Shown: piece by piece, positions 16,659 through 45,527 of the stretch
Position numbering within the stretch: the stretch's first letter is position 1
How the letters are laid out: each line of letters starts with the position of its first letter
From: Paracoccus salsus
Lineage (GTDB): Bacteria > Pseudomonadota > Alphaproteobacteria > Rhodobacterales > Rhodobacteraceae
Length of the DNA: 64,000 bases
Assembly (NCBI RefSeq): GCF_021556615.1
Contig: NZ_JAKGGD010000002.1
Coordinates: 310,001 to 374,000, forward strand
Reading direction: 5' to 3'
Program-made: the position numbers and the translations under genes
Notes under the pieces: model-generated
The model's input: only the letters and a program-made list of their open reading frames with translations
Database searches by the model: none
What the model was told of the DNA's origin: nothing

Positions 16659-17552
16659 CTAGCCCAGACGCGCCGGAAGTCTCCAGCCACGAAGCATCTC
16701 GCCGGCCGACATCGGCCTCTTGCCCTGCCGCTGCGCCTCGATGATTTCGACCGCGCCCTCGCCGCAGGCGACGCGAAACCCCGACAGGACCTCGCCCGGC
16801 GCGCCCCCTGCCTCGATCAGCCGGCTGCGCAGCAGCTTGACGCGCTCGCCATCGATGTCGCACCAGGCCCCCGGAAAAGGCGACAGGCCACGGATCTGGC
16901 GGTCGACCTGCCAGGCAGGCGCGGACCAGTCGATCCGCGCCTCGGCCTTGTCGATCTTGGCGGCATAGGTCACACCATCTTCGGGCTGCGGCGTCGCGGC
17001 CAGCGGCAGGGCAGCAAGAACCTCGACGATCAGGTCCGCGCCCAGCCGCGCCAGCCTGTCGTGCAGGTCGGCGGCCGTGTCCTCGGGTCCGATCGGCGTG
17101 CGCGCCGCTGCCAGCACCGGCCCGGTATCCAGCCCTGCCTCCATCTGCATGATCGCGATCCCGGTTTCGGCATCACCCGCCATCAACGCCCGCTGGATCG
17201 GCGCCGCCCCCCGCCAGCGCGGCAACAGCGAGGCATGGATGTTCAGGCAACCGAGACGAGGGGCATCCAGCACCGGCTGCGGAAGGATCAGCCCATAGGC
17301 TGCCACCACCGCCACATCCGCATCCAGCGCGGCCAATGCCGCCTGCGCCTCGGAATCACCCAGCCGCGCCGGGGTCCGGACCGCGATCCCCAGCCTGTCC
17401 GCTTCCGCATGAACCGCCGAGGGCCGCGCCGTCTGCCCGCGCCCTGCGGGACGCGGCGGCTGCGAATAGACCGCCACCACATCATGGGCCGCGGCGATCG
17501 CGCGCAGCGCCGGAACCGAGAACCCGGGCGTTCCCATGAAGATCACGCGCAT
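16659..17552 (-). CDS. fmt: Methionyl-tRNA formyltransferase
   Basis: A 297-residue enzyme that formylates initiator Met-tRNA using 10-formyltetrahydrofolate. Catalytic residues Asn104, His106 (in NIHASLLP) and Asp142 (in GLDTGPVL) are all present, as is the FMGTP start motif. The C-terminal OB-like domain follows residue 205. It is downstream of three deformylase genes on the same strand, so the enzymes adding and removing the formyl group are grouped. A REP-like repeat lies between it and the nearest def gene. Confidence 0.97.
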
Positions 17553-17628: not shown

Positions 17629-18126
17629 TCACCGCGCCAGCTTGGCAGATTTCCGAACCAGCATCCTGCGTCGCAGCGGCGTCAGGTGATCCACATACAG
17701 GCGGCCGTCCAGATGGTCGATCTGATGCTGCACGCTGGTCGCCCACAACCCGACGAAATCGCGGTCCTCGATCTGACCCGTCTCGTTCAGGAACCGCACG
17801 GTCACCGCGCGCGGCCGACTGACCGTGGCGGACACGCCCGGCAGATTCGGACTGGCCTCGTCGTGACGGCGCATCTGCATGCTGGCATGCAACACGCTCG
17901 GATTGGCCATGCGGACGGCCTGCCCGCGCCGTTCGGACGCGTCCACGACGGCAAGCCGGAGCATGATCCCGATCTGCGGCGCGGCAAGACCGACGCCCGG
18001 CATCGCCTCCATCGTGTCGACCATGTCGTCCCAGACCATCCGGACGGTCTCGGTCACCGCCTCGACCGGCTCGGCCGCGACATGCAGCCGTCGGTCGGCA
18101 TAGGGCAGGAAGGCGCGGACAGTCAC
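17629..18126 (-). CDS. Degenerate peptide deformylase-like protein
   Basis: A 165-residue Def-family protein. Motif 1 GVGLAAPQ is intact at 44-51. Motif 2, normally EGCLS, reads EASPN at 90-94, so the metal-ligand Cys is replaced by Ser92. Motif 3, normally HExxH, reads HQIDH at 134-138, so the catalytic Glu is Gln135. The two His ligands remain. From known Def chemistry this should be inactive or very weak as a deformylase. It starts at GTG (18126), overlapping the stop of the second def gene by four bases (GTGA), and ends 76 bases before fmt. It could be a regulatory pseudoenzyme or act on another substrate. Confidence 0.85.
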
Positions 18127-18638
18127 AGGAAATCCACGATCAGCCGGCCTTCGAGGTGATCGGCCTCGTGCTGTGCGATGCGCGCGGCCGCCCCCGACAG
18201 CGCGCGGCGGCAGCGGCGGCCATCCAGATCGTACCAGGCCACCGTCACCTGGTGCGGGCGCACCACCTCGACACGCTGGCCGGGGATCGACAGGCACCGT
18301 TCGCCATCCCGCTGGGCGCGGTCCGAACGGACGACGATCTCGGGGTCCAGCATCACCATTGGCTCGGAGACACCCTGCTTCCAGCCGGCATCCATCACGA
18401 AGATCCGCCGCAGAACGCCGATCTGCGGCGCGGCCAGCCCGCGCCCGCCCGCCTCGTACATGCTGGCCAGCAGATCGGCGGCCAGTTGCCGCAGATCGGG
18501 ACCCTTCAGATAGCCCGAGGGCTGCGAGACATCGCGCAGGACCGGGTCGGGATGGATCAGGATCGGGCGCAGGACGCCGCCCGCCAGCGCGTCCGGAAGG
18601 GCGGGTCGCGCCCTGCCGGCATCGGGCCGGTCAGGCAC
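18123..18638 (-). CDS. def: Peptide deformylase (second copy)
   Basis: A 171-residue metalloenzyme that removes the N-formyl group from nascent proteins. Motifs: GRGLAAPQ at 65-72, ERCLS at 113-117 and HEADH at 157-161. The metal ligands Cys115, His157 and His161 and catalytic Glu158 are present; the usual Gly before the Cys is Arg114, a variant seen in divergent Def proteins. The first 20 residues are extra relative to the first copy. It appears to start at GTG (18638), overlapping the stop of the first copy by 8 bases. The usual truncated C-terminus is consistent with a type 1B-like form. Confidence 0.88.
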   Translation of the reverse strand: MPDRPDAGRARPALPDALAGGVLRPILIHPDPVLRDVSQPSGYLKGPDLRQLAADLLASMYEAGGRGLAAPQIGVLRRIFVMDAGWKQGVSEPMVMLDPEIVVRSDRAQRDGERCLSIPGQRVEVVRPHQVTVAWYDLDGRRCRRALSGAAARIAQHEADHLEGRLIVDFL

Positions 18639-19152
18639 GGGTCCGCTCGCGCTTCAGCTTGACCATCCTGCGGGTAATCATCTGGCGCTTGATCGCCGAC
18701 AGGTGGTCGATGAACAGCACCCCGTCCAGATGGTCCAGTTCGTGCTGGGCACAGGTCGCCCAGAGTCCGTCGAACTCTTCCTCGTGGGTCTTGCCGTCCA
18801 GGCCCAGCCAGCGCATCCGGACCTCGGCGGGCCGGGTCACATCCGCATACTGATCGGGGATCGACAGGCAGCCCTCGTCATAGGTGTTCAGAGTGTCCGA
18901 TGTCCAGGCGATCTCGGGGTTGATCAGCACCATCGGGCGGCGCTCGGCGTCGGGGTCGCGCGTCGCGTCCATCACGAAGATCCGCTGCAGCACGCCCACC
19001 TGCGGTGCCGCCAGCCCGACGCCCGGCGCGTCGTACATGGTGGCCAGCATGTCGTCGGCCAGCGCCTCGATCTCGGGCGTGACGCGGGCAACGGGGGCGC
19101 ATCTCTTCTTGAGGCGCGGGTCGGGATGGATCAGGATCGGACGAATGCTCAT
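18631..19152 (-). CDS. def: Peptide deformylase (canonical copy)
   Basis: A 173-residue Fe2+-dependent deformylase with all three family motifs intact: GVGLAAPQ 44-51, EGCLS 93-97 and HELDH 137-141. The C-terminal basic helix (KRQMITRRMVKLKRERTRA, the last 19 residues) is as in E. coli-type Def and is likely to contact the ribosome. It is the first gene of def-def-def-fmt and must be the main housekeeping enzyme. ATG at 19152 is the start that matches the family; an open frame upstream is not conserved-looking. It is divergent from the PatB-type gene. Confidence 0.96.
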   Translation of the reverse strand: MSIRPILIHPDPRLKKRCAPVARVTPEIEALADDMLATMYDAPGVGLAAPQVGVLQRIFVMDATRDPDAERRPMVLINPEIAWTSDTLNTYDEGCLSIPDQYADVTRPAEVRMRWLGLDGKTHEEEFDGLWATCAQHELDHLDGVLFIDHLSAIKRQMITRRMVKLKRERTRA

Positions 19153-19231
19153 GGCTGACGATTTAGGGGATGGCTTCACCTGACGCAACAACCGGCGTAT
19201 TCAGGACCCGAAACAAGATCCGAGGCCCTCG

Positions 19232-22093: not shown

Positions 22094-23158
22094 TCACCCG
22101 CTGCCGACCGTCGCCGCAAGCCTGCGCGTCGCGCGGAACGGAAAACGCAGCCTCCATTCGGTTCCCTGATCCAGCCGGCACTCCATGCTGCCATCGATCT
22201 GGCTGACAAGCGCGCCCACCATGTAGGGCTGGCGCGGTTCTCCGGCCCGGTCGACGGGCAGGCCGACGCCATCATCGCTGACCGTTATCTCGATTTCGAC
22301 GTCCAGGATGGTGCAGCGGCAATGGATCCGGCCTGAACTGCGGCCAGGGAAGGCGTGCTTGATCGCGTTCGTTACCAGTTCGTTGACCAGAAGCGCCAGC
22401 GGCAGCGCCAGGTCGATATGGATCGCCGCGCTTTCGGTCTCGACCTCGATCCGGATATGTTTCGGGCAAAGAGCCGCGCGGATGCCGTTGATCAGCTTCG
22501 GCATAAGCTCGGCCAGTTCGACGATTTCGGTCTGATGGTTGCTGTCGAGGATGTCGTGAACGACGGCAATCGACTTGATCCGGCTGGCTGCGCTGCGCAG
22601 GGCGCCGCTGACGCTCTGATCGCCTGCCGAACGGGCCTGCTCGTTGAGCAGGGCCGAGATGATCGCCAGGTTGTTCTTGACCCGGTGCACCAGTTCGCGT
22701 TCCAGGAACTTCGCCACCGCCACCGAAGCTTCCAGCTCGTCCGATTTCTTCTGGTAAAGGGCAAGCTGGGAATTCAGGTCCCTGATCTGCTGCGCGTGGA
22801 TCGAGAATTGCGCGGTGGAATCGGCGACCGATGCAATCAGGATGCGAGGCATGGCCGTGCCATCGGGCGGCAGACCGCGCGCCCTGGCGTGGATCGAAAC
22901 CTCATCGCGGAAGAAATGCGCCGGGATCCAGTTCGACGACATGGACGCGGATCGCAACAGGTCGGCAAGCGGCATGGGCCGCGTCTTCCAGCCGGCAATA
23001 TCGCACGGCACGGGTCCGGACGGTCGGGCCAGCCCGAAGGCGTTTCGCCCGGCGGCGTTCGCATAAAGCACGCGCCCTTCCAGATCGACGACCAGCGTCG
23101 TGCAGGGATGCGCGTCCAGCGCCAGATCCGCGATCGGCGCCTGGCTGCGCCCGGTCAT
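22094..23158 (-). CDS. Sensor histidine kinase, PAS plus HisKA_2-type
   Basis: A 354-residue cytoplasmic kinase without membrane segments. Residues 10-115 resemble a PAS domain (TTLVVDLEGRVLYANAAGRNAFG). A coiled coil at about 120-155 leads to the phosphoacceptor His158 in ELVHRVKNNL, the HisKA_2 form used by HWE-like kinases. The ATPase domain has Asn259/Asn264 in VNELVTNAIKHAF and the DDGVGL G1 box at 295-300. Its start overlaps the stop of the methanogen-output-domain gene by four bases, so the two probably act together. No response regulator is adjacent. Confidence 0.87.
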   Translation of the reverse strand: MTGRSQAPIADLALDAHPCTTLVVDLEGRVLYANAAGRNAFGLARPSGPVPCDIAGWKTRPMPLADLLRSASMSSNWIPAHFFRDEVSIHARARGLPPDGTAMPRILIASVADSTAQFSIHAQQIRDLNSQLALYQKKSDELEASVAVAKFLERELVHRVKNNLAIISALLNEQARSAGDQSVSGALRSAASRIKSIAVVHDILDSNHQTEIVELAELMPKLINGIRAALCPKHIRIEVETESAAIHIDLALPLALLVNELVTNAIKHAFPGRSSGRIHCRCTILDVEIEITVSDDGVGLPVDRAGEPRQPYMVGALVSQIDGSMECRLDQGTEWRLRFPFRATRRLAATVGSG

Positions 23159-23697
23159 GATGTCTCGTCAGCGGGATGGCGCGGCAACCGATAGTATTCG
23201 CGCGCGTCCGGGGCGGCGTCGTCATGCGGTTTCAGATGGACGACGACGCGGCAGCCCGGATCACCCCTTGCGATGGTCTCGTCCAGCTGCACGCGCGCAT
23301 AGCCAAGATTGTCCGCAGATATCCGGCCAAAGACATTGGATGTCATCATGCAAAGCGATGTCCGGCCGACGACCATCTCCCCGAACGGGCAGCGGCGATT
23401 GCCGAAGACCATCTTGTCCTCATCGATGGAGATCAGGTAGAAATCTCCGCCGATGCGCTTCTTGAGATCGACGCAAACGGACGCGACCTCTTCGGGGCGA
23501 AGCTGCGTCTTGCCGAGGACCTCGCGATACGATGCGTCGATCCACAGCCCGACCTGACCGCCCACGGTGCTGATATAGCCCTCGGCGGCTTCAAGACCCA
23601 CGACACCTTCCAGCGTCCCGCTCAGGTCGCGCAGCAACCTGCGAAAGAACAGATCGCGGTCAAGGGCCACGTCTGCATCGGACATGTCTTCAGGCAA
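23155..23697 (-). CDS. Methanogen output domain 1-type sensory protein
   Basis: A 180-residue soluble protein resembling proteins with the methanogen output domain (V4R-like small-molecule binding fold). Hallmarks are the LRDLSGTLEGVVGLEAAEGY region, VDLKKRIGGDFY at 76-87, CPFGE at 103-107, LCMMTSNVFG at 115-124 and the GCRVVV strand at 148-153. Cys103, Cys116 and Cys149 are candidates for metal or cluster binding. TTG at 23697 has a GGGGTGG Shine-Dalgarno; ATG at 23685 is the alternative. The overlap with the kinase gene suggests it provides or modulates the input signal. The ligand is unknown. Confidence 0.75.
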   Translation of the reverse strand: MPEDMSDADVALDRDLFFRRLLRDLSGTLEGVVGLEAAEGYISTVGGQVGLWIDASYREVLGKTQLRPEEVASVCVDLKKRIGGDFYLISIDEDKMVFGNRRCPFGEMVVGRTSLCMMTSNVFGRISADNLGYARVQLDETIARGDPGCRVVVHLKPHDDAAPDAREYYRLPRHPADETS

Positions 23698-44147: not shown

Positions 44148-45527
44148 TCAGGCTTCTCCGGGGTTGTCCATGTCCGGCAGGACCGTGACCAGCGCCTTGA
44201 TCAGCTTCTCGCGCGCTATCGGCTTGGCGACGCTGAGATCCATGCCGCAGGCGAGGTATTCCCGGATCTGGTGCAGCATCACGTTTGCGGACAGCGCCAC
44301 GATCGGGGTTCGCGGCAGCCCGGCTTCGGCCTCGACACGCCGGATGGCCTTCGTCGCATCGATCCCGCTCATCACCGGCATCGCCACGTCCATCAGGATC
44401 ACGTCGGCTGCCTCGGCCTTCCAGGCATCCAGCAACGCCTGCCCGTTCGCGACGATTTCCAGCCGCAGGTCATAGCGGCTCAACAGGCTTTTCAGCACCA
44501 GCTGATTGGTCAGGTTATCCTCGGCGGCCAGCACCCGCAGCGGCCTGCTTGCCAGCCGGTCGATGAACCGTCGCTCGTGGTCGAGAGGCGCAGCCTTCGG
44601 CTGCACAGTGACCCGCGCAACGCGCATCGTCGCGGTAAAGAGGCTGCCTTTTCCGGTCCGACTTTCCGCGACCAGATCGCCGCCCAGCATCCGACACAGC
44701 CGCCGCGAGATCGCAAGACCCAGCCCGCTGCCGCCATAGCGCCGCGAGATGCCGGCATCGGCCTGGTTGTAGGGAATAAACAGGCAAGACATCTGCTCGG
44801 GGCTTATGCCGATCCCGGTATCAGACACCTCGATCCGCAGCAGCCCGCCGGCATCCGCCGCATCATCCATGCGGACATTCACGGAGATCTGCCCCCTGTC
44901 CGTGAACTTGACCGCATTCGAAAGCAGATTGCCCAGGACCTGTCGGAGGCGTGTCGGATCGCCCGTGATCCAGCTTTCCGTCTCGATCTCGACAGCCAAT
45001 TCCAGCCCCTTTTCTTCGGCCTTCAGCCGGTAAAGACGTTCGATCGCTCCGACCGCCTCGGTCAGATCGAAGGGCATGGTCTCGATTTCCAGCCGGTCGG
45101 CCTCGATCTTGGAAAGGTCGAGGATGTCGTTCAGGACGGACAGCAGCAGATCACCCGATTCGACGATCACCGCCAACATCTTGTGTTGCGAGGGCGACAA
45201 GGACGTCTCGGTCAGTGCCGTCGCCGTGCCCAGGATGCCGTTCAGAGGGGTGCGGATCTCATGGCTCATATGAGCCAGGAACGCCGATTTCGCTGCGTTG
45301 GCCGCCTCGGCCTGGTGGCGCGAGGCCTCAAGCTCGGCAGTGCGTTCGCGCACCGCCCTTTCCAGCCGCCTGGCCTCGCGGACAAGGCGCTGATTGGCCT
45401 CGTAAAGCTGGCGACTTTTCGCTTCCAGCAGCGTCTCGGCCTCGTGGCGAGCGCGACGCTCTCGTTCATAGCGGGTCCGGGACACCGCCGGATGCGGCCC
45501 ATTCCTGCCCTGGGTCATGCCGGTCAT
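44148..45527 (-). CDS. Hybrid histidine kinase paired with H-NOX (HahK type)
   Basis: A 459-residue soluble hybrid kinase. Residues 18-75 form a coiled coil with no sensor domain. The HisKA domain has the phosphoacceptor His89 in HMSHEIRTPLNG; the ATPase domain runs about 190-310; a receiver domain follows with phosphoacceptor Asp380 in ILMDVAMP and the conserved Lys in VAKPI. The start ATG lies 6 bases after the H-NOX stop. Lack of its own sensor and the tight coupling fit H-NOX-associated kinases, whose activity is switched by nitric oxide bound to H-NOX. A downstream phosphotransfer partner is not in the window. Confidence 0.88.
   Translation of the reverse strand: MTGMTQGRNGPHPAVSRTRYERERRARHEAETLLEAKSRQLYEANQRLVREARRLERAVRERTAELEASRHQAEAANAAKSAFLAHMSHEIRTPLNGILGTATALTETSLSPSQHKMLAVIVESGDLLLSVLNDILDLSKIEADRLEIETMPFDLTEAVGAIERLYRLKAEEKGLELAVEIETESWITGDPTRLRQVLGNLLSNAVKFTDRGQISVNVRMDDAADAGGLLRIEVSDTGIGISPEQMSCLFIPYNQADAGISRRYGGSGLGLAISRRLCRMLGGDLVAESRTGKGSLFTATMRVARVTVQPKAAPLDHERRFIDRLASRPLRVLAAEDNLTNQLVLKSLLSRYDLRLEIVANGQALLDAWKAEAADVILMDVAMPVMSGIDATKAIRRVEAEAGLPRTPIVALSANVMLHQIREYLACGMDLSVAKPIAREKLIKALVTVLPDMDNPGEA

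Follow-up and report, generated by a model that had tools for sequence, protein, structure and literature searches.

Comparison with described systems

An arrangement in which a separate sensor is encoded beside a kinase or a GGDEF/EAL enzyme, and acts on it, has been described for H-NOX proteins (PMC8738867). H-NOX domains are generally known to ligate heme through a conserved histidine. It is likewise common knowledge that the V4R sensors of MopR and PoxR have a zinc site and a pocket for aromatic ligands, and that in MopR and DmpR the sensor and a sigma54 AAA+ activator form one protein. As to MetOD1 itself (Pfam PF18546, the “methanogen output domain”), Galperin and co-workers remarked that it resembles the HNOB, V4R and ATC hydrolase domains, and that MetOD1 and V4R have three cysteines in common (PMC5847659). 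MetOD1 also appears in a table of Borg proteins (PMC9879509), and V4R has been found fused to photoactive yellow protein in a publication from which the word MetOD is absent (PMC12826048). Finally, both PhyR and single-domain regulators, the FATGUY regulators MrrA and SdrG among them, are known to receive input from HWE/HisKA2 kinases (PMC5964349, PMC12148442).

The locus considered here, a MetOD1 gene followed by a kinase gene in a window of 64,000 nucleotides from Paracoccus salsus (the window being the whole stretch of DNA that was analysed), can be compared with each of these in turn. It is like H-NOX systems in that a separate sensor is encoded beside an enzyme, and the MetOD1 model compares with H-NOX at Z ~9; the heme-histidine criterion, however, fails (MetOD1 has no constant His, and its constant residues include three Cys), and MetOD1 partners differ in having a common, recognisable PAS front end. 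The V4R domains of MopR, PoxR and DmpR provide the closest solved fold (Foldseek E 1.1e-4, Z ~15), and MetOD1 too can be found fused to a sigma54 activator; identity among the structure matches is, however, just 14-18%, and the sensor in the window is a separate protein whose output is a kinase. Methanogen MetOD1 belongs to the same Pfam family and has the three cysteines, but occurs stand-alone or as REC-MetOD1 or REC-PAS-MetOD1 (PMC5847659). With the HWE/HisKA2 inputs to PhyR and MrrA/SdrG the locus shares a HisKA_2 kinase, a single-domain receiver (in its relatives) and a PhyR locus; the differences are that the receivers encoded in the relatives’ operons lack the strict FATGUY motif PFxFATG[GY] in 29/29 cases, and that in the window a free-standing MetOD1 protein would supply the input.

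No description of a pairing between MetOD1 and a PAS-containing partner was found in the open-access literature searched, and the bearing sections of PMC5847659 make no mention of bacterial pairing with PAS-HK, GGDEF or PP2C proteins. By analogy the pair may work as H-NOX does with its adjacent enzyme.

The gene pair in the window

The upstream gene (23155-23697, minus strand) encodes a stand-alone MetOD1 protein of 180 aa that scores 67.9 bits against the Pfam MetOD1 model (gathering cut-off 23.8); its listed start is TTG, codon 5 being ATG. The downstream gene (22094-23158, minus strand) encodes a kinase of 354 aa with the order PAS, signalling helix, HisKA_2, HATPase, and the two meet in an ATGA (23155-23158, minus strand) within which the MetOD1 stop and the kinase start overlap. 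A first-pass annotation, made from sequence alone, had described a translationally coupled pair consisting of a V4R-like protein with three conserved-looking cysteines and a PAS/HisKA_2 kinase. The pair held, both genes lying on the minus strand where they had been placed, and so did the coupling, in the form of the stop/start overlap; HisKA_2 was confirmed above cut-off, and the PAS matches of the kinase fell below that of Pfam. A genome search found one MetOD1 match and two HisKA_2 matches in the Paracoccus genome as a whole.

The N-terminal PAS-like part of the kinase (approximately residues 8-112; 22823-23137, minus strand) rests on a profile, a genome search and the secondary structure of the AlphaFold model (pLDDT 90.5, pTM 0.67), in which a PAS-like order of elements is followed by a single long helix, 114-177. 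Residues from about 114 to 157, with the conserved F118, make up the signalling helix (22688-22819, minus strand). The HisKA_2 dimerisation and phosphoacceptor domain (22478-22696, minus strand; 69 bits, cut-off 22.3) contains H158 (codon at 22685-22687, minus strand), and the HATPase_c core (residues 253-306; 22241-22402, minus strand; 37.3 bits, cut-off 26.4) contains N259, D295 and G297. In a chosen alignment of 39 sequences (A5: the window kinase and 38 of the 51 HisKA_2-type partners described below) H158, D295 and G297 are invariant and N259 is conserved at 90% or above. The best structure match is the LOV kinase EL346, with Z 21.2 over model residues 151-347; the VIA comparison is confined largely to residues 158-344 and leaves out the PAS part. 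The protein meets the criteria for a HisKA_2 histidine kinase, namely a phosphoacceptor His and a HATPase with both domains above cut-off, and autokinase activity is to be expected because none of the H-box, N-box and D-x-G residues is missing, this being an inference from sequence alone. Its best NCBIfam model is PhyK (NF051872), at 92.4 bits against a cut-off of 750, so that the equivalog assignment is not met.

Elsewhere in the window, three consecutive overlapping peptide deformylase genes occupy 17629-19191 on the minus strand (17629-18297, 18123-18638 and 18631-19191). Next comes a gene for a formyltransferase (16659-17552), and the Pfam matches of all four are strong.

Constancy of the pairing

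Scanning named genomes with a peptide pattern turned up 261 MetOD1 relatives, from which the best 80 loci, spread over many phyla, were kept. In 79 of the 80 a same-strand partner gene starts between -58 and +56 nt from the MetOD1 stop, and in the remaining one (L099) MetOD1 is fused to a HisKA kinase. These offsets are approximate, the partner start having been taken as the nearest plausible start codon, and in 5/80 loci the partner frame was set by homology instead of by the automatic pick. An output was recognised in 77 of the 79 coupled partners; the exceptions are one truncated partner (L047) and one without a recognised output (L113), in which PAS and GAF-like parts are followed by a stop. 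In all, the outputs were assigned as HisKA_2 in 51 loci, HisKA in 22, GGDEF in 4, and truncated, fused and unrecognised in one each, and Pfam searches of the 80 partners together with the window kinase found HisKA_2 in 52, HisKA in 23, GGDEF in 4, EAL in 4 and Response_reg in 16. Kinase or GGDEF frames elsewhere in the 80 loci amount to only ~0.04 per kb (30 in ~758 kb), a background that may be undercounted for other types, as the models used were built from the partners themselves. Set against this figure, 79 coupled loci and one fusion out of 80 all but exclude a chance pairing, which is not a credible explanation.

The obvious objection is that a sample of this kind is biased toward sequences close to the query, and for that reason a second sample was drawn from every MetOD1 match above the Pfam cut-off in the genome searches. 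It comprises 33 loci besides the window (L151-L153 having been dropped as under the MetOD1 cut-off), five of them common to both sets. An intact neighbour bearing an output motif is present in 31/33; of the two exceptions, L145 has a neighbour disrupted by a frame change, and in L150 MetOD1 is joined to a sigma54 activator in a single protein. The balance of outputs is HisKA 13 (including L145), GGDEF 10, HisKA_2 9 and fusion 1. Plasmids add to this: MetOD1 was found in 16 of 72,556 plasmid records, and of the 7/16 that were opened five have coupled partners and one a sigma54 fusion (L221), a divergent MetOD1 on a Priestia plasmid (L220) being without a coupled partner. The survey of co-occurrence and fusion that the first-pass annotation had put forward as a check has thus been run and has found both constant pairing and fusions. 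The compact signalling pair that it suggested is supported, with outputs broader than HisKA_2 kinases alone; the chemistry of the input and the physical interaction remain inferences.

Some individual loci are worth recording. In Palleronia pelagia (L047, 6501-7055) the partner departs from kinase sequence at the H-box, with PAS and helix intact. The fusions to sigma54 AAA+ activators lie at L150 4949-6511 and L221 2303-3967, and the latter adjoins genes for a ZIP metal transporter, a zinc ribbon and a carbonic anhydrase, which may possibly hint at zinc. HisKA_2 partners at L064 (3931-4950) and in the Henriciella loci L069, L079, L080, L103 and L115 have unusual H-boxes (HSVRNT; HRVNNN), that at L064 having in addition a weak ATPase motif; it is possible that these are pseudokinases.

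A common front end with exchangeable outputs

A profile was built from the region preceding the H-box in HisKA_2 partners only (48 of them, plus that of the window), leaving L044, L082, L086 and L113 unlabelled and outside both the profile and its targets. It finds 50 of the 51 partners of other outputs or fates at E ≤1e-3 (in a small database, of 51), with domain E-values better than 1e-15 for 30 of these and between 1e-15 and 1e-5 for the other 20; the only one not found is L099, the fusion, in which MetOD1 stands where the PAS would be. Wherever a partner has an additional match to the profile, it is the first match that scores best (15/15), and conservation reaches 90% or more at G28, N34 and F118 across 81 partners. 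A PP2C/SpoIIE phosphatase is the partner on a Streptomyces plasmid, its gene overlapping that of MetOD1 (L218, 2998-5105), with STAS and anti-sigma-factor-like genes nearby. The front end of this phosphatase matches the HisKA_2-derived profile with E 4e-29.

A search of 198 genomes of the family with 30 front ends placed MetOD1-adjacent proteins in all of the top seven positions (E 1.3e-38 to 1.8e-18), two of them belonging to the query alignment and five lying outside it, after which E drops to 2.0e-12 for a partial match away from MetOD1. It must be remembered that some match at 1e-3 is found in 185/198 of these genomes, and that several GGDEF and HisKA partners within the family score only ~1e-10 to 1e-6, no better than generic PAS domains, some of them being unseen among the top matches. 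No more than 19 candidates were scored in any one genome, and weaker matches may have been missed for that reason.

In a tree built from 109 MetOD1 sequences (five duplicates having been removed) the output labels cluster, 11 changes being needed when the other rows are treated as a fourth group as against a mean of 45.4 after shuffling, yet the three main labels still need at least seven changes. It follows that MetOD1 and its partner are mostly inherited as a pair and that outputs are exchanged now and then, the number of swaps being uncertain as 53/106 inner branches are weakly supported.

Predicted fold and cysteine site of MetOD1

A sequence search of solved structures, whether with the MetOD1 protein or with a profile, yielded nothing meaningful; only fold comparison gave matches. 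The AlphaFold model (pLDDT 83.4, pTM 0.76) has MopR as its best Foldseek match (E 1.1e-4), with Bet3/TRAPP, PoxR and DmpR close behind, and comparison by VIA gives Z 15.2 over 149 residues for DmpR, Z 14.8 over 145 for Bet3 and Z 9.2 over 137 for H-NOX, the last perhaps reflecting merely a common arrangement. The domain is accordingly predicted, on the strength of a model, to have a V4R-type sensor fold as in MopR, PoxR and DmpR, in agreement with the HNOB/V4R/ATC hydrolase remark of Galperin and co-workers (PMC5847659), and the V4R-like call made at first pass is supported to that extent.

The three cysteines held as well. C103 of the CPF motif (codon at 23389-23391, minus strand), C116 of the LCMMT motif (23350-23352, minus strand) and C149 (23251-23253, minus strand) are present in 109/109 aligned sequences, as are P104, F105, T119 and G124, and conservation is very strong around CPF and LCMMTSNVFG. 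There is a caveat here, in that the peptide pattern used for scanning includes C116, T119 and G124, which were thus selected for in the 80 pattern-scan loci, though not in those drawn with Pfam. For the structure work a separate alignment of 51 chosen MetOD1 sequences (A3) was used, which leaves out 30/80 pattern-scan loci, among them L044, where there is an internal stop in frame.

No His column exceeds 48/109 sequences, and a profile search for HNOB gave no match to the MetOD1 protein up to E 1. An H-NOX-like heme reading was considered and dropped for want of a constant His. Given three invariant Cys and no His column above that level, a metal, Fe-S or thiol site is likelier than a heme of the H-NOX type, but this is inferred, there being no binding or ligand data.

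The receiver and a probable link to PhyR

The first-pass annotation had stated that no response regulator lies beside the kinase. Locally this held: the nearest receiver domain in the window, and the only receiver match of the genome there, belongs to a HisKA-HATPase-REC hybrid kinase of 459 aa encoded 21 kb away (44148-45527, minus strand), and no receiver gene is nearby in any of the seven tree sequences of the window clade. In 29 of the 51 HisKA_2-type loci, on the other hand, a gene for a single-domain receiver follows the kinase, starting between -25 and +59 nt from its stop. In HisKA-type loci the receiver lies within the partner itself in 16/22, and none of the 4 GGDEF loci has one within ~3.5 kb. 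The three-gene form occurs on plasmids of Cereibacter sphaeroides 2.4.1, Sulfitobacter indolifex and Paracoccus liaowanqingii. In the first of these, a standard laboratory strain (L216, 1-3431), the MetOD1 operon comes just after a gene for a biliverdin-producing heme oxygenase and an EAL-domain gene.

Of the 29 receiver matches in the window genome, PhyR is the one closest to 28/29 operon receivers, as against 0/50 control receivers from the same loci (49 of which had any match). This PhyR (PhyR_sigma2 88.1 bits, Response_reg 43.7 bits) has NepR (49.3 bits) as a neighbour, and also the gene for a sigma factor, which scores 336 bits with a sigma factor model; the PhyR-NepR-EcfG locus holds one of the two HisKA_2 kinases of the genome, for which the best model is PhyK, again below cut-off. 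Since the window locus lacks the receiver that many relatives encode in the operon, and no receiver of its genome resembles that one more than PhyR does, PhyR is the best candidate receiver, and the window kinase probably feeds the general stress response; it should be stressed that this is inferred, without phosphotransfer data. It is also possible that the match reflects no more than a mutual resemblance among receivers of HisKA_2 kinases. The looser motif FAT[AG] is found in 12/29 operon receivers.

Within the family, PhyR is present in 17/18 genomes with MetOD1 and 70/180 without (Fisher p 3.7e-6), the test being uncorrected for relatedness and the counts having been taken by hand. PhyR was counted only at E <1e-19 (87/198 genomes) because PF22029 also matches the EcfG-like sigma factor of the window genome; in the genus, 125/125 genomes have a PF22029 match. 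A co-occurrence specific to HisKA_2 was tested for but did not emerge: PhyR is present in 6/6 genomes with HisKA_2 partners, but nearly as frequently with other outputs, so that the co-occurrence says little about HisKA_2.

Distribution and possible transfer

Counting the window genome each time, MetOD1 is found above cut-off in 18/198 genomes of the family, 4/125 of the genus, 7/385 of the class and 8/299 of the phylum, a patchy distribution. The MetOD1 stretches aligned from two genomes of the genus are identical to those in named Paracoccus records. On the tree the window sequence groups with those of Flavimaricola, another Rhodobacteraceae genome, Citreimonas, Maritalea, Limimaricola and Palleronia pelagia (SH-aLRT 99), apart from the other Paracoccus copies. 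As it falls with other genera and not with its own, horizontal acquisition is suggested.

Proposed mechanism and alternatives

What has been computed comprises the genes, their coupling, the cross-phylum pairing, the common N-terminal module, the output swaps, the predicted fold and the Cys conservation, and also the third gene in relatives and the PhyR locus. The mechanism proposed to account for these is favoured only by a modest margin, and binding, ligand and phosphotransfer are all inferred in it: MetOD1 would be a trans-acting sensor subunit that gates its partner via the PAS module, in this case a kinase leading to PhyR. A soluble MetOD1 subunit, with a predicted ligand-binding fold of the V4R/H-NOX type, would be made along with its own signalling enzyme and would bind a ligand or cofactor at the three-Cys site, probably a metal or a thiol-reactive signal. 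It would then act in trans on the PAS and signalling-helix front end of its neighbour, and the resulting change would alter the activity of the attached output, whichever that is. In the Paracoccus genome this output would be the HisKA_2 kinase, with PhyR, which serves as phospho-switch in the general stress response (PhyR-NepR-EcfG), as its likely receiver.

Of the alternatives, the one suggested by the Pfam name is that MetOD1 is an output or target, controlled by the kinase or by a receiver. In its favour, the MetOD1 of methanogens is found either on its own or preceded by REC domains (PMC5847659), and MA2445, a REC-MetOD1 protein, has been reported as possibly taking part in the phosphorelay of the kinase MA4377 (PMC11784639). 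Against it, the MetOD1 of the window has no REC and is encoded upstream of the kinase, bacterial fusions place MetOD1 at the input, before a kinase (L099) or a sigma54 activator (L150, L221), and some MetOD1 partners are GGDEF or PP2C proteins, from which no phosphoryl group could be passed on. The fusions, the position ahead of the output gene and the fact that partners are alike mainly in their front ends all favour a sensor, and the output reading is considered unlikely.

A second alternative is that MetOD1 is an enzyme that produces or removes a ligand of the partner PAS, for instance by hydrolysing C-S bonds as ATC hydrolase does. Galperin and co-workers saw the ATC hydrolase similarity and proposed a related activity (PMC5847659), and the strong conservation at the CPF and LCMMTSNVFG motifs would suit a catalytic site; the top structure matches are, however, sensor and TRAPP domains, and fusions to kinase and activator cores suggest direct signalling, which leaves this reading improbable. 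Hardly better placed is the view that the kinase is mainly a phosphatase or phosphotransferase in the stress network, like PhyK and LovK of Caulobacter, and that MetOD1 tunes this activity. Caulobacter PhyK does act as a phosphotransferase (PMC5964349), and PhyK is the top NCBIfam model for the window kinase, though far under its cut-off, but the H-box, N-box and D-x-G residues of the window kinase are complete. That the two genes are mere neighbours without a functional link has only the lack of wet-lab data to support it and is all but ruled out by the pairing in 79/80 and 31/33 loci and by the fusions.

Returning to the reading of MetOD1 as a trans-acting sensor, a bolder form of it, in which one may place slightly more belief than doubt and for which there are no contact data, is that MetOD1 and the PAS/helix docking module form a portable two-piece sensor with a V4R-fold subunit. 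In bacteria of many phyla this sensor would have been attached to no fewer than four types of output (HisKA_2 kinase, HisKA or hybrid kinase, GGDEF-EAL protein and PP2C phosphatase), besides the fusions of MetOD1 to a kinase and to sigma54 activators.

Implications

A family labelled as a methanogen output domain of unknown function turns out, in the bacteria surveyed, to be paired almost invariably with a signalling enzyme, ahead of which it is encoded, and thereby gains a testable role, that of a trans-acting sensor. With the sensor nearly constant and the outputs different, one ligand could explain the inputs of kinases, c-di-GMP enzymes and a phosphatase in many phyla. If the bolder reading is true, one constant signal, received via three cysteines, would be routed to the stress response, to c-di-GMP or to partner-switching according to lineage.
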